Below, in pieces: positions 16,112 through 21,866 of a stretch of 48,510 nucleotides of DNA. Origin of the DNA: an uncultured Metabacillus sp. (GTDB taxonomy: Bacteria; Bacillota; Bacilli; Bacillales; Bacillaceae). The notes under the pieces are model-generated. The model did no database searches, was not told where the DNA came from, and was given only the letters and a program-made list of their open reading frames with translations. The stretch lies in the NCBI RefSeq assembly GCF_947503125.1, contig NZ_CANNCR010000032.1, positions 1 through 48,510 on the forward strand, read 5' to 3'. Numbering within the stretch: the first letter of the stretch is position 1; each line of letters opens with the position of its first letter. The position numbers and the translations under genes are program-made.

Positions 16112-19100
16112 TTACATAACATTAAAATATTTCGCGTCTGGATGTGAAACAACTATCGCTGTAACAGAGGCTTCAGGCTCCATCATAAAGCCTTCTGTTA
16201 ATTGAATGCCGATATCTTCTGGGCGCAATAGGTTAAAGAGTTTTTCTTGATCCTCTAGGTCCGGACATGCAGGGTAACCGAATGAATATCGTTGTCCCTG
16301 GTATTTTGCGGAGAATCGTTGATCCATTGTGAAGTCAGGTGCGTCAGGGAAGCCCCAACGGTCACGAATGAGTTGATGCGTTCTCTCTGCTAATCCTTCA
16401 GCAAGCTCCAAGGCAAGGGCTTGAACGGCATGGCTCTTTAGATAATCACCTTGTTCTTTAAAGCCTTGTGCCAGCTCGCGAATTTGGCTTCCAGCTGTAA
16501 CAGCAAACATTGCAACATAATCAAAACCATCGTCCTGTTTAGGGCGAACATAGTCTGAAATACAACGATATGGCATCTTTTCCTGTCTAGGAAAATCAAA
16601 TGTTTGCAGTATGGTCGTCGTATCATTTGGATCAAGTATATGCAATTTGTTCCCTTCGCTATAGGATGGGAAAAATTGATAAGCAGCAGCTGGTTTAAAC
16701 CACTGCTTTTTTGCACCATCCTTCAGCAGCTCCTTAACTAGCTCGAATAGTTCCATCGCTTTTGGATCCTTCTTTTTCACCAATTCCTTGACCTTTCCTT
16801 TTAATCCAAGGTGGTGGCCAATTAACATTTGCATGTTCACATACGGGATAATTTGCGTTAGGTCAATATCCTTCAAAATGTGACGCTTCGTATCAACAGG
16901 CGTGAAGATTGGTGCTTCGCTTAGGTTTCCGCGTTTTTCAAAGAGCTCGGTAACAGCTTTTGTCGGTGCAGCCTTTGGTTTGGCTTCTTCCGTTACCGCT
17001 GCTTCTTTTTCAGCGAATAGCTCTGGTGTCGTTCGTAATTGATTCGCTAACGATAAACCATCCATCGCATCCTTCGCATATACAACAGGCCCCTTATATT
17101 GTGGTGCTATTTTCATTTTTGTAAATTTCCTTGAAAGGGCAGCACCGCCGACTAAAATTGGCAGATTGCAATTTGCTTCTTGCAAGTCTTGAGCGGTAAT
17201 CACCATTTGCTGGGCGGATTTTACTAAAAGACCTGATAATCCAATTAAATCAGGCTTTTCATCCTTTACTGCTTGGATTAGGGTTTGAGGTGTAACCTTA
17301 ATGCCAAGGTCGATAACCTTATAGCCGTTATTGCTTAAAATAATATCTACAAGGTTTTTTCCGATATCGTGAACATCACCTTTTACGGTTGCAAGAAGTA
17401 TTTTCCCTTTTCCGCTGTCATCTTTTTTCTCCATATATTGCTCTAAAAAGGACACCGATGCTTTCATGACCTCTGCACTTTGAAGTACTTCGGCAACAAT
17501 TAATTGATTGTCATTAAATAAGGCACCAACCTCAGCCATTCCGGCCATAAGTGGTCCATTAATGATCGATAGAGGATCAGGATACTTTTTAAGTGCCAAT
17601 TCTAAATCGGGAATAAGTCCTTCTTTCGTTCCTTCTACGATATAATTGGCAAGCCGTTCTTCTAAATTAAGATTTTGAACAGGCTTTTTGTCCTCTTTTT
17701 TCTTGCCGCGATAGAAGTTCGTAAACGTTGCTAATGTTTCATCTGTTGTTTTAAACAATAGATCTTCAGCCATCTGAATTTCCTCTTTAGGAATGGAGGC
17801 AAATCGTTCTAGTTTTTCTGTGTTAACAATCGCATAGTCAAGACCTGCTTGTGTACAGTGGTATAAATAAACGGCATTTAATACCTCGCGTCCAACAGGC
17901 GGAAGACCGAAGGATACGTTACTAACTCCTAGGATGGTTAAGCATTCCGGCAAGCGTTCCTTAATAAGCTGAATGCCGCGCACCGTTTCATTTGCAGAAC
18001 CAATATACTGTTCATCACCAGTTCCGACCGGAAATACGAGCGGGTCGAATATTAAATCACTAGCTTTTAAGCCATGTTTTTTAACAAGAAGGTCATGTGA
18101 GCGAATCGCCACTTCAAGCTTCTTTTCAGCAGTTAAGGCCATGCCGTCTTCATCAATCGTCCCAACAACTAATGCACCGCCATATTTTTTAACAAGCGGG
18201 ACAATTGCATCAAACCGTTCTTCTCCATCTTCAAGGTTAATCGAGTTGATAATCGCTTTTCCTTGCGAGTACTTTAAAGCTTGTTCGATTACTTTTTCAT
18301 CTGTTGAGTCAATCACAAGCGGTGCCTTTACTTTTTTTACAACCTCTTTAATGAATGCTTCCATGTCTTCCATTTCATCGCGATCTGGGTCTGCCAAGCA
18401 GATATCGATAACATGTGCTCCATTTTTTACCTGTGCTCTAGCAATCTCTGAAGCTTCTTCAAATTTTTGTTCAGCAATTAATCGTTTGAATTTACGAGAG
18501 CCGATGACATTTGTCCGTTCTCCAACAAATAATGGACGCATTCCTTCTTCATAAAGAAGCGCATCAATACCTGACACAGTATGACCGTTTGAAACCTCCT
18601 CAATTCTGCGTGGAGGAATAGCAGAAACGGCTTCTGAAATAGCTTTAATGTGCTCAGGTGTTGTACCACAGCAGCCGCCAACAAGATTCAACCAGCCTTG
18701 TTCAGCAAAGCCAACAAGCTTTTTCGCAAGTGATTCAGGTGATTCATGGTAGTTGCCTTCTTCATCAGGCAGCCCTGCATTTGGATAGCAGCTTACAGCT
18801 GTGCTAGCCAATCCAGAAAGCGTTCGAATATGGTCTGTCATAAATTCAGGACCTGTTGCACAGTTTAGACCAACAGAAATTGGCTTCATATGCTCTAAGG
18901 AGATATAAAATGCTTCAATATCTTGACCGGCTAATGTTGTTCCCATCGGTTCAATTGTTCCAGATACCATAAGCGGAAGTTCTTTCCCTGTTTGTTCAAA
19001 AGCCTTTTGGATCCCGATAAAACCAGCTTTTACATTTAGCATATCCTGGCTTGTTTCAAGGAGAAGAACATCTGCTCCGCCAATGATTAATCCTCTGGCT

Positions 19101-19534
19101 TGTTCCTCGTAGTTATCGACCAATGTATCAAAGGTTGTACCACCTGTAACAGATAATGTTTTTGTTGTTGGACCCATTGCACCGGCAACAAATCTCGGTT
19201 TCTCGGGTGTTGAGTATTTTTCAGCGGCTTTTTTTGCAAGTTTCGCTGATTCAATATTAAGCTCGAGAGCCAGTGAGCCCAATTCATATTCGTCTAAGAC
19301 TAAACCGGTAGCACCGAATGTGTTTGTGGAAATAATATCTGAGCCTGCTTCGAGGTAGGCTTCATGGATTTTTTCGATTGTTGTTGGAGCTGTTAATGTT
19401 AAATATTCATTACAGCCTTCATATTCTTCCCCGCCAAAATCAGCCGGTGTGAGATTTGCAGCTTGAATCATTGTACCCATTGCACCGTCAAGTACAAGGA
19501 TTCGTTTCTTTAGTTCATCCCTGATGCTACACAT
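16112..19534 (-). CDS. metH: Cobalamin-dependent methionine synthase MetH
   Basis: Transfers the methyl group of 5-methyl-THF to homocysteine through cobalamin. 1140 aa, four modules in order: homocysteine/zinc domain (about 1-310) with zinc ligands Cys225 (GLNCATGP) and Cys288/Cys289 (GGCCGTTP); pterin-binding barrel (about 335-600, [27 protein letters not shown]); B12 module (about 640-860) with the cobalt-ligating DVHDIGKN; and the SAM reactivation domain (about 890-1140, [22 protein letters not shown]). The preferred start is the ATG at 19534, preceded by AAAGGAAG and overlapping the yitJ stop by 8 bp. An in-frame ATG 13 codons upstream lies inside yitJ without a ribosome site. It is cotranscribed with yitJ behind the S-box leader, so it is SAM-repressed. 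Confidence 0.95.
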
Positions 19535-21380
19535 GTGTAATCTTCCTTTCAGCCAGTTGTTTTTCCTTTTCATGGATGTAATTTGTAAGCTCCACTGTAA
19601 GGTCGTATTGTAGGAATGGAGTAATTAAATAAATGCCATTGAATAAATCAAATGCTGTATCAATCAAATCCTTGGCAATGGCAAGGCCTTCTTGACGTGC
19701 TTTTTCTTTATCCGTTCCTGCAGCAGCCATTTTTTCGCGAATGGAATCTGATAATTTAATGCCCGGAATTTCATTATGAATAAATTCAGCGTTACGACTT
19801 GAAGTTAACGGCATGATGCCAATATAGATCGGTGCCTTCAGCTCGCGTGTCGCTTCATAAACATCAATGATTTGCTGATTTGAATATAGCGGCTGTGAGA
19901 TAAAATAATCTGCACCATGGGCAATTTTCTTTTCAAGCCTTACAACTGCTTTGTCTAAGTGGCGTACATTTGGATTAAAAGCAGCGGCAACTGAGAAATT
20001 TGTTTTCGCTCCTAATGGTTTTCCAGAATAAGATACACCCTCATTAAATTGTTTAATTAAACTGATTAAATCAAATGATGATAAATCATAAACAGATGTT
20101 GCTCCAGGGAAATCGCCGATTTTCGAAGGGTCCCCGGTTATTGCTAATACGTCTGTTAATCCTAAAGAATGCAAGCCCATTAAATGAGATTGTAGTCCAA
20201 TTAGGTTGCGGTCACGACATGTAATATGAATTAGCATTCTTCCACCGGTTTTTTCTTTTGCTAGTATTCCAGCAGCCAAATTGCTTATCCGCGGAGAGGC
20301 AAGCGAGTTATCCGCAAGGGTTAAGGCATCGATACCAGCATTTTGCAATGCTTGTGCGCCTTCAAGGAATACATTCATCCCAAGCTTTTTCGGAGGATCA
20401 AGCTCAACAATGACAGAACGTTTTTGCTTAACCATTTCTTGCAGAGGCGGAAGAGTTTCATTATTTTTTGTAACAATCGTTTCTTGCTGTTGCTTAGGAG
20501 CTTTCACCTTTTTTTCAGTAACAGGAGCTAAATGGGAAACTGCCTTAGCCATTGCTTGAATATGCTTTGGGGTTGTACCGCAGCATCCGCCTATTAAACG
20601 AACTCCTTGCTCTCTAAACTTTTGTGCACTCTCTCTAAAATAACCTTCATCAGATTCATAGACTAGACGTCCTTCATTAAAGGCAGGCAGGCTGCTGTTT
20701 GGAAACACTGATAAATAGGCATGACCCAGAAGCGGTACTTCTTCAAGAGATTGAATCATATGATATGGCCCTAAATGACAGTTTAAGCCAATGACATTTG
20801 CACCAAGCTCCTCTAGAAGGGAAAAGGCATTTGTTACGGTTGTTCCATCTTGAAGGACACCCGCTTCATGAAGGGATACATTGGCAATGATCGGTTTGTT
20901 TGTTTCCTTTTTTGCGATTTGCAGGACCGTTTTCATTTCTTCTAAATCATAGTAGGTTTCTAATAAAATCCCGTCGACATCCTCATTTAAGAGAATAAAA
21001 AGCTGTTCTCTGAAGTTTCGCTTAATTTCTTCTAGAGTATGTGCGCTCTTCTTAAAGGTACGAACACCGCCGATTGTGCCAAAGACATATGTTGAAGGTG
21101 CTGCTGCCCGTTTTGCGATTTGTACTGCTTGCTTGTTAATTTGTCTAATGTCATCTTCTAAGCCGTAACGTGAGAGTTTAATATCATTTGCTCCATATGT
21201 GTTCGTTTGAATGACATCTGCACCAGCTTGAATATAGGCTTGATGAACACGCAGCACGTCCTCAGGCTTTGAAAGATTTAATTCCTCAAAGCAGCGATCG
21301 ACACCGTGGGTATAAAGCATTGTTCCCATTGCTCCATCTCCAATTAAAATCTTTTTCTGTAAGTCTTCCAAAAAGCTCAT
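19527..21380 (-). CDS. yitJ: Bifunctional homocysteine S-methyltransferase / methylene-THF reductase YitJ
   Basis: 617 aa. The N-terminal homocysteine methyltransferase domain (about 1-300) has DGAMGTML, the zinc ligands Cys201 (LNCHLGP) and Cys266/Cys267 (GGCCGTTP). A linker (300-325) leads to a methylene-tetrahydrofolate reductase barrel (about 330-610) with [15 protein letters not shown] and the YFISQPLYS segment. The reductase makes 5-methyl-THF, the methyl donor used by MetH encoded immediately downstream. AGGCTTTTC lies before the ATG. It is preceded by a SAM-I riboswitch with its terminator about 65 bp upstream of the start. Stop and metH start overlap (ATGTGTAG), suggesting translational coupling. 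Confidence 0.95.
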
Positions 21381-21440
21381 TGAAAAGCCTCCGATCTATT
21401 TAATAAAGTGGCGAGGAAATAGATTGAATCGATCTCTAAT

Positions 21441-21866
21441 AAAAAAAGCCTTCTTAAGCAGAAGACTGAATGATTCAAAGCTTCCCCTTATCTTTCAAGC
21501 ATTTTACATGCTTAGCTGGAATTAGCACCTTGGCACTCGGAAGATCTTAGGAGGGTGAAAAGTTGATTGTTTTGAAAAGTTGAAAGAAATGACCCAATCT
21601 TAGTTTTGTTTGTTTTCTTTCAGCACCGGCAAGCTTACGCTTGCCAGCGGCTTGGTTAGCAAGCCTTGTGAAAAATAATAAAAAATGCTTCGAACAAACA
21701 AGTGCGTTTTGTTCGATTCATTTTTTATTATTTTTCGGTGCTGAAAGAAAACAACTTAGGGTTATTTTCGAACTTTGAGACAATCACCGAATCCTGAGAT
21801 CTTCACTCGTTGTTGACCGGTTGCTGAAGCTTCATTGGGCCAGTCCCTCAGCTTCTCTTGATAAGA
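21441..21866 (-). promoter_or_regulatory. SAM-I (S-box) riboswitch with a giant P3 arm, plus terminator
   Basis: Read on the minus strand. P1 5' strand CTTATC (21865-21860), then the conserved P2 segment GAGGGACTGGCCCAATGAAGC and AGCAACC. The 3' core resumes only at 21529 with AAGGTGCTAATTCCAGC, the P4 hairpin AAGCATGTAAAATGCTT, GAAAGATAAG closing P1 (21492-21487), and the expression-platform terminator GTCTTCT/AGAAGGC with seven T (21466-21441). All diagnostic S-box elements are present. SAM binding should terminate transcription ahead of yitJ-metH. The unusual part is P3: between AGCAACC and AAGGTGC lie nearly 290 nt, where ordinary S-box aptamers are about 110-125 nt in total. The extra sequence is itself base-paired (GAAGATCT with AGATCTTC at the base). 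Confidence 0.92.
21611..21753. repeat. Cloverleaf-like nested palindrome inside the riboswitch P3 arm
   Basis: The outer arms 21611-21628 and 21736-21753 are an 18-bp perfect inverted repeat (TGTTTTCTTTCAGCACCG). Inside are three independent hairpins: GCAAGC-TTAC-GCTTGC (21629-21644), GGCTTG-GTTAG-CAAGCC (21649-21665), and an 18-bp perfect stem 21670-21687 / 21719-21736 that contains a further 8-bp stem CGAACAAA/TTTGTTCG (21691-21698 / 21708-21715). The arms keep imperfect complementarity outward for another 50-70 nt on each side. No coding capacity. It could be a MITE-like mobile element or an RNA structural extension. Confidence 0.85.

Follow-up and report, generated by a model that had tools for sequence, protein, structure and literature searches.

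SAM-I (S-box) riboswitches are among the best-studied riboswitches, and their P3 is usually a small peripheral stem. Larger arms are not without precedent in riboswitches, as long, nonconserved stem-loop inserts can be tolerated in them, according to the excerpted text of Barrick and Breaker (2007; PMC2258182). In Bacillus subtilis, S-box leaders, including that of yitJ, are turned over by RNase Y (excerpt of PMC3542257). In the leader described here, P3 carries a giant arm with a conserved design. Long nonconserved inserts being already known, it is this conserved giant P3 domain that constitutes a new form of the SAM-I riboswitch. A literature search on long or conserved P3 domains in SAM-I returned none in titles and abstract openings, subscription journals being thinly covered.

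The yitJ-metH leader

The window, i.e., the whole stretch of DNA that was analysed, comprises 48,510 nucleotides from an uncultured Metabacillus sp. By sequence inspection, an intact SAM-I leader was recognised on its minus strand (21438-21865), in front of two genes which we take to be yitJ and metH, names that stem from the preliminary description. The S-box elements which that description had listed on this strand were all confirmed at their place. SAM-I membership is indicated by P1, P2 (with kink-turn and GGCC loop), the GCAACC/GGTGC base of P3, J3/4 and P4, all of which are present, and by the terminator and the methionine/SAM gene downstream, which are both present as well. The two halves of the aptamer had been said to lie nearly 290 nt apart, and the P3 interior, from GCAACC to GGTGC, indeed measures 289 nt; the value of about 250 nt in the title of the same description was too low. 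The features are the following.

21855..21865, minus strand: P1 5′ strand and J1/2, CTTATCAAGAG; the P1 strand CTTATC is 21860-21865
21825..21855, minus strand: P2 with kink-turn and pseudoknot loop, GAAGCTGAGGGACTGGCCCAATGAAGCTTCA, containing GAGGGACTGGCCC..ATGAAGC
21815..21824, minus strand: P3 5′ base, GCAACCGGTC; GCAACC is 21819-21824
21797..21811, minus strand: basal motif, 5′ half, AACGAGTGAAGATCT, of the AACGAG type; candidate second kink-turn
21755..21796, minus strand: proximal part of the giant P3, 5′ side, from minimum free energy (MFE) pairing; aligns poorly between species
21736..21754, minus strand: outer stem of the four-way junction, 5′ strand; pairs with 21610-21628 as a perfect inverted repeat of 19 bp, with covariation
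21670..21736, minus strand: hairpin A (67 nt), whose internal loop and apex are conserved (fold and alignment)
21649..21665, minus strand: hairpin B, GGCTTGCTAACCAAGCC (fold and alignment)
21628..21645, minus strand: hairpin C, GGCAAGCGTAAGCTTGCC (fold and alignment)
21610..21628, minus strand: outer stem of the four-way junction, 3′ strand (inverted repeat, covariation)
21548..21609, minus strand: proximal part of the giant P3, 3′ side (MFE pairing)
21532..21547, minus strand: basal motif, 3′ half, AGATCTTCCGAGTGCC (motif count and fold)
21518..21531, minus strand: P3 3′ base and J3/4, AAGGTGCTAATTCC (sequence and fold)
21496..21516, minus strand: P4 (fold)
21487..21492, minus strand: P1 3′ strand, GATAAG (sequence)
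21438..21467, minus strand: intrinsic terminator of the expression platform; hairpin 21447-21467 and T tract
19527..21380, minus strand: yitJ-type gene, 617 aa, the first regulated gene (open reading frame)
16112..19573, minus strand: metH-type gene, 1153 aa (open reading frame)

As the preliminary description had anticipated, the insert pairs with itself, and GAAGATCT and AGATCTTC are found paired near its base. Folding of the full leader, an analysis it had proposed, yields P1, P2, the giant P3, P4 and the terminator together in the MFE structure of the 441-nt leader (z = -8.9; none of 100 shuffles equally good). The terminator is the single terminator-like site detected in this leader, shuffled versions having a mean of 0.5. 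A partition function that takes neither SAM nor tertiary contacts into account gives pairing probabilities of 0.98-1.0 for the outer stem and for hairpins B and C; the apical stem of hairpin A drops from 1.0 to 0.27 toward its loop end, the P3 base has 0.32-0.65 and P1 0.49.

In the covariance search that had likewise been proposed, the Rfam model RF00162 matches the 5′ half of the leader, at 43.0 bits against a gathering score of 44.4, and the whole window gave no match at the gathering threshold. The score stays just below the cut-off because the model fits its 3′ half into the insert and does not span the 289-nt P3. In the same genome, the metK leader (40.8 bits) also falls below the cut-off and the metI leader (53.1 bits) above it. 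Shorter-P3 yitJ leaders of other genomes exceed it (81 bits in G018, over a P3 of 36 nt; 69.7 bits in G009, over one of 177 nt). As the giant P3 puts the yitJ and metK leaders of this genome below the cut-off, such leaders may be under-annotated.

Long P3 arms in Metabacillus

A search with the YitJ protein led to 18 named loci, mostly from Metabacillus, which we accordingly take as the genus of the window, the nearest being that of Bacillus sp. SA1-12 (96% identity in the best segment). The S-box leaders of yitJ, metI and metK were compared in 21 Metabacillus genomes, 61 leaders altogether: 21 for yitJ, 20 for metI, which was not located in G017, and 20 for metK, with G010 left out. Their P3 interiors range from 36 to 366 nt for yitJ, from 21 to 287 nt for metI and from 48 to 247 nt for metK. 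When an interior of at least 170 nt is called long, 41 of the 61 leaders have a long P3 (yitJ 14/21, metI 17/20, metK 10/20). By genome, 12 of the 21 have a long P3 in two or all three leaders, seven in one leader and two in none. The genome of the window (G000) has a giant P3 in all three leaders (289, 275 and 247 nt), and its six remaining S-box matches span just 92-159 nt each. The preliminary description had named an assembly chimera, to be recognised by comparison with relatives, as one of the outcomes that would undo its reading. Since the long P3 recurs in 19 of the 21 genomes, and in multiple leaders of many of them, it is no assembly artefact.

Both sides of P1, GAGGGAC, GGCCC, J3/4 and the terminator are retained in all 41 long-P3 leaders, and in the 20 shorter ones as well, except for one undetected terminator (metI of G018); the leaders were located via loose forms of some of these motifs, so that the fully independent elements are the P1 strands and the terminator, and P4 lies outside the tally. 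This retention supports the earlier proposal that a SAM-I riboswitch with a huge, self-folding P3 can still fold.

The yitJ leader entered as L035 and L057 (G006; L057 is from Metabacillus niabensis EaN21-8) has a P3 of 366 nt, in which hairpins of 46 and 38 nt nested within hairpin A represent further growth of the arm. A different length change is seen downstream of the metI aptamer: the metI start, as picked automatically, lies 329 nt past GGTGC in the genome of the window (L002, G000:C51) versus 158 nt in its sister G011. The additional DNA, situated downstream of the metI terminator and ahead of the gene, resembles an inserted repeat, with GCGCC close to one of its ends and GGCGC close to the opposite one.

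A conserved four-way junction

The arm starts at its base with a G.A/A.G motif, continues as a long, imperfectly paired stem and then the outer stem, and ends in a four-way junction of about 130 nt. In the MFE folds of 28 of the 41 long arms (yitJ 9/14, including the one of G006 with extra hairpins inside A; metI 12/17; metK 7/10), the junction has a long hairpin A followed by the short hairpins B and C, and the other 13 fold without this A-B-C junction. The metK arm L126, with a differing junction, is not among the 28.

The yitJ/metI junction alignment (n = 20) contains 45 pairs, 16 of them with double changes, and 98.3% of its cells are paired. In 75 cells both sides are changed, compared to 22.3±3.8 after shuffling, with none of 500 shuffles as high, and sliding the partners brings pairing down to 43-51%. 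In the metK junctions (n = 7), 57 pairs include six with double changes, a count made without shuffle control. As read from these alignments, the junction is common to the yitJ, metI and metK leaders of Metabacillus, and compensatory changes keep its yitJ/metI form. To judge from the occurrence of such a junction in the P3 of three leaders across the genus, a conserved RNA domain may be accommodated within an aptamer arm.

To compare the loci, one covariance model was made from the yitJ/metI junctions alone (R1) and another from the metK junctions alone (R2). R1 matches seven metK arms at 44-66 bits; R2, in turn, matches arms of yitJ and metI with scores reaching 68 bits. However, since the arms are palindromes, R1 also matches their antisense strands, at 24.6-53.3 bits; this range overlaps with the weaker metK matches, so that bits alone are no proof of homology. 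With structure-preserving shuffles (60 each; metK compared with seven of the 20 yitJ/metI domains), six of the seven metK domains tested against yitJ/metI score 13.3-19.1, with shuffled means of 5.0-5.7 and 0/60 as high in each case; as these shuffles ignore neighbour composition, the likeness is just suggestive of common descent.

The apical half of hairpin A includes an internal loop rich in purines and, at its apex, CGAA-N17-TTCG. When yitJ and metI loci are compared, this half shows 87% identity, about the level within loci (90% and 85%), against 61% for lower A and 71% for the outer stem, and for this reason the apex looks sequence-constrained.

The basal motif

At the base of the arm, an AACGAG-type motif is found in 28/31 long and 3/10 shorter P3s of yitJ and metI. 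It occurs on both strands, with AACGAG opposite CGAGT, in 26/31 long and 3/10 shorter arms of these genes. None of the 10 long metK arms has the both-strand motif, the 5′ half being absent there. Outside the genus, the basal AACGAG was seen in one of the 107 leaders examined, which is the single giant (L216) described below.

A kink-turn consists of a three-nucleotide bulge followed by G.A and A.G pairs, as given in an excerpt of PMC4316175, and the arm base resembles it in having a bulge AAC, then GA, opposite GA (AAC-GA-G / C-GA-GUG). Energy folding, however, sets the bulge two pairs off the tandem G.A. The basal motif can be read as a putative kink-turn, which would be the second in the leader, besides that of P2. 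The structure of the kink-turn-binding protein YbxF with a SAM riboswitch kink-turn is tabulated in the same excerpt (PMC4316175).

P3 outside the genus

For an unbiased view of P3 length, the S-box 5′ half alone was searched in 61 genomes of the order, and the 127 listed matches outside the genome of the window were read. In the 105 occurrences parsed from other genera, the median P3 is 21 nt and all but two measure at most 89 nt; one of these two (L211) is a parsing error and has a short P3. In 23 unparsed occurrences, P3 is short by eye in the printed stretch. One true giant was encountered among the 127 leaders, a metI leader from another family (L216, G098:C19), whose P3 measures 349 nt. 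This arm, too, comprises an outer stem followed by the long hairpin A and the short B and C, and it has an extra hairpin near its base. With the structure-preserving shuffles and the limit noted for them above, its junction scores 13.9 against yitJ/metI (shuffled 6.2±1.0; 0/60 as high) and 7.9 against metK (shuffled 6.8±0.9; 10 of 60 shuffles as high). The extra hairpin, next to the junction arm, has 18 bp (GTTGTGAATAAAATG.../...CATTTTATTCACAAC).

A moderately long P3 from another genus is that of the yitJ leader of Anoxybacillus calidus (L068; 125 nt, two-hairpin fold). For metK, P3 measures 37-46 nt in ten leaders of two other genera of the family, drawn from 59 other-genus genomes with a metK match, most of which were left out. 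An order-wide search with R1 gave a match in one of 397 genomes, that of the window itself; with its stricter filters and eight candidates scored per genome, in a set that may or may not include G098, this is weak evidence of absence.

Function of the arm

We consider it probable (roughly 0.6) that the leader is a working SAM-I transcription-attenuation riboswitch in which P3 has turned into an accessory domain of about 290 nt with a role of its own. SAM would still bind the core formed by the P3 base, P1 and P4, and the closing of P1 would lead to formation of the terminator, while the arm would be present in both switch states. With less certainty, the basal motif would be a kink-turn that orients the arm, and a protein may dock on, or cleave, hairpin A, whose apex is conserved in sequence. 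Candidate partners are a kink-turn-binding L7Ae-type protein, RNase III or another RNase, which might tune the lifetime or the readthrough of these leaders. A platform for an RNase or RNA-binding protein is the most likely role of the arm; a part in timing is possible too. Docking or processing is favoured because the arm should exist in both states and has no pocket-like conserved loops. To such a partner the arm offers about 25-29 bp of double-stranded RNA in a hairpin whose apex is conserved.

The main rival is a neutral one, which we hold to be possible but clearly less likely: P3 tolerates growth and the arm is functionless, palindromes growing, being corrected by template switching, and persisting as they fold by themselves and leave the aptamer undisturbed. 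It finds a precedent in the tolerated inserts of other riboswitches, and the wide spread of lengths within the genus (36-366 nt for yitJ), with its repeated gain or loss, and the two extra hairpins inside A in G006 are in line with it. On the YitJ tree, the long state requires a minimum of four changes for yitJ, two for metI and three for metK, counts that cannot separate gain from loss. Within each of two sister pairs, G000/G011 and G013/G009, one member lacks the greater part of the metK arm that the other has (metK P3 is 247 nt in G000 versus 48 nt in G011). The arm thus appears to be old in the genus and dispensable over time. These natural long- and short-arm versions of one leader in sister species make its role directly testable.

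The neutral explanation is also compatible with a strand test, in which G.U and A.C interruptions were counted within Watson-Crick-defined helices. Over whole P3 arms (n = 41), there are 32 G.U v 25 A.C (p = 0.43), divided into 9 v 11 for yitJ (a group of 15 arms, one being the metI arm of G014), 17 v 5 for metI and 6 v 9 for metK. Restricted to the junction, the count of column events is 9 v 3 in yitJ/metI (p = 0.15) and 3 v 2 in metK. As to folding energy, sense is superior to antisense in 23/41 whole arms (p = 0.14), and for the window's own arm the antisense folds better by 12 kcal/mol; in the junctions alone, sense folds better in 12/20 for yitJ/metI (p = 0.057) and 6/7 for metK (p = 0.047). 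As G.U does not clearly exceed A.C and the sense bias is weak, selection on RNA rather than on a DNA palindrome is unproven, and it is by inference that we assign the arm a function. Neutral growth, on the other hand, does not readily explain why other genera have short arms while the lone giant among 127 leaders has the same junction, why one architecture stands at three loci, why the apex sequence is kept between loci where the flanking stem has diverged, or why the basal motif accompanies mostly giant arms.

The accessory role may be taken further, to a version we regard as speculative. A 'crown' domain, made of basal kink-turn, rod, junction and sequence-specific apex, would recruit a protein or RNase to P3 as a second regulatory module, such that each leader would respond to a further signal besides SAM and the methionine-cycle genes would be tuned jointly. 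The domain would be older than the divergence of Metabacillus and at least one further Bacillales family, or would have moved between them. The recurrence of one arm design on three methionine-gene switches across the genus suggests an unrecognised add-on part of SAM-I.

A very improbable explanation is that a mobile palindromic element (a MITE or bcr-like repeat) landed in P3. The inverted-repeat ends of the arm, with a direct repeat CGAGTG at both ends, resembled what an insertion leaves when it duplicates its target. Relatives, however, keep the CGAGTG repeat, and CGAG recurs in three shorter yitJ arms, in keeping with the tandem G.A motif; a target-site duplication was therefore rejected. 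Moreover, the several dispersed copies expected of a MITE or bcr-like family were found neither by BLAST in the genome of the window, where the only match of the arm besides itself is the metI leader, nor by the models in the 21 genomes, with at most 150 candidates scored per genome: all matches listed for R1 fall in the yitJ, metI and metK leaders, as do those for R2 bar one (E = 0.017). Absence elsewhere is not watertight, as genome-wide R1 missed the metK arm of G003, which reaches 56 bits in a local search, and other copies could be missed likewise. The one match beyond the three leaders (G004:C6:220929-220980, plus strand) is a weak one, to hairpin A of the metK model. Repeats of the bcr1 type are mobile, structured elements of Bacillaceae (the Bacillus cereus group), and the P3 arm is like them in size, structure and host family; unlike them, it shows no dispersal, its matches lying in S-box P3 among at most 150 candidates per genome.

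We give equally little credence to the apex of hairpin A as a DNA operator with PurR-type double-box spacing, which would couple purine and methionine one-carbon flow. In PurR operators, the CGAA cores of a pair of inverted boxes are separated by 16-17 nt, and a spacing of 17 nt is common to the yitJ and metI arms and to a PurR-like palindrome before a purine permease gene. Beyond CGAAC, the fit to the PurR consensus is poor by eye; the core is altered in the metI arms of G002 and G016 (L155, L166) and absent in the metK arms, and the apex lies deep in the transcribed leader. With fitting cores and spacing and poor flanks, an operator is unlikely. The palindrome mentioned (L094, G000:C92:1822-1846) is perfect, CGAACATTATTTAAAATAATGTTCG, lies between a guaA-like and a purine permease-like gene, and is possibly a PurR operator. 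Finally, the second small-molecule sensor suggested in the preliminary description, which could appeal to a four-way junction inside a riboswitch and to the conserved internal loop of hairpin A, is the least credible reading, since the linkers between the junction helices are variable, as are the loops of hairpins B and C, and no conserved unpaired pocket was seen in the yitJ/metI junction alignment.

Comparison with known systems

The leader shares with SAM-I riboswitches (RF00162) such as that of B. subtilis yitJ the same P1, P2, P3 base, P4, terminator and gene context, as well as the Rfam match of its 5′ half. It differs from SAM-I elsewhere by a P3 of 289 nt, compared to a median of 21 nt in 105 leaders of other genera, and by the conserved four-way junction. 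Like the 'variable insertions' of riboswitches, it has a long stem-loop at a tolerant site with the core left intact; unlike those insertions, which are nonconserved in the excerpted text (PMC2258182), the P3 arm combines a shared architecture with covariation and an apex that is conserved across loci.
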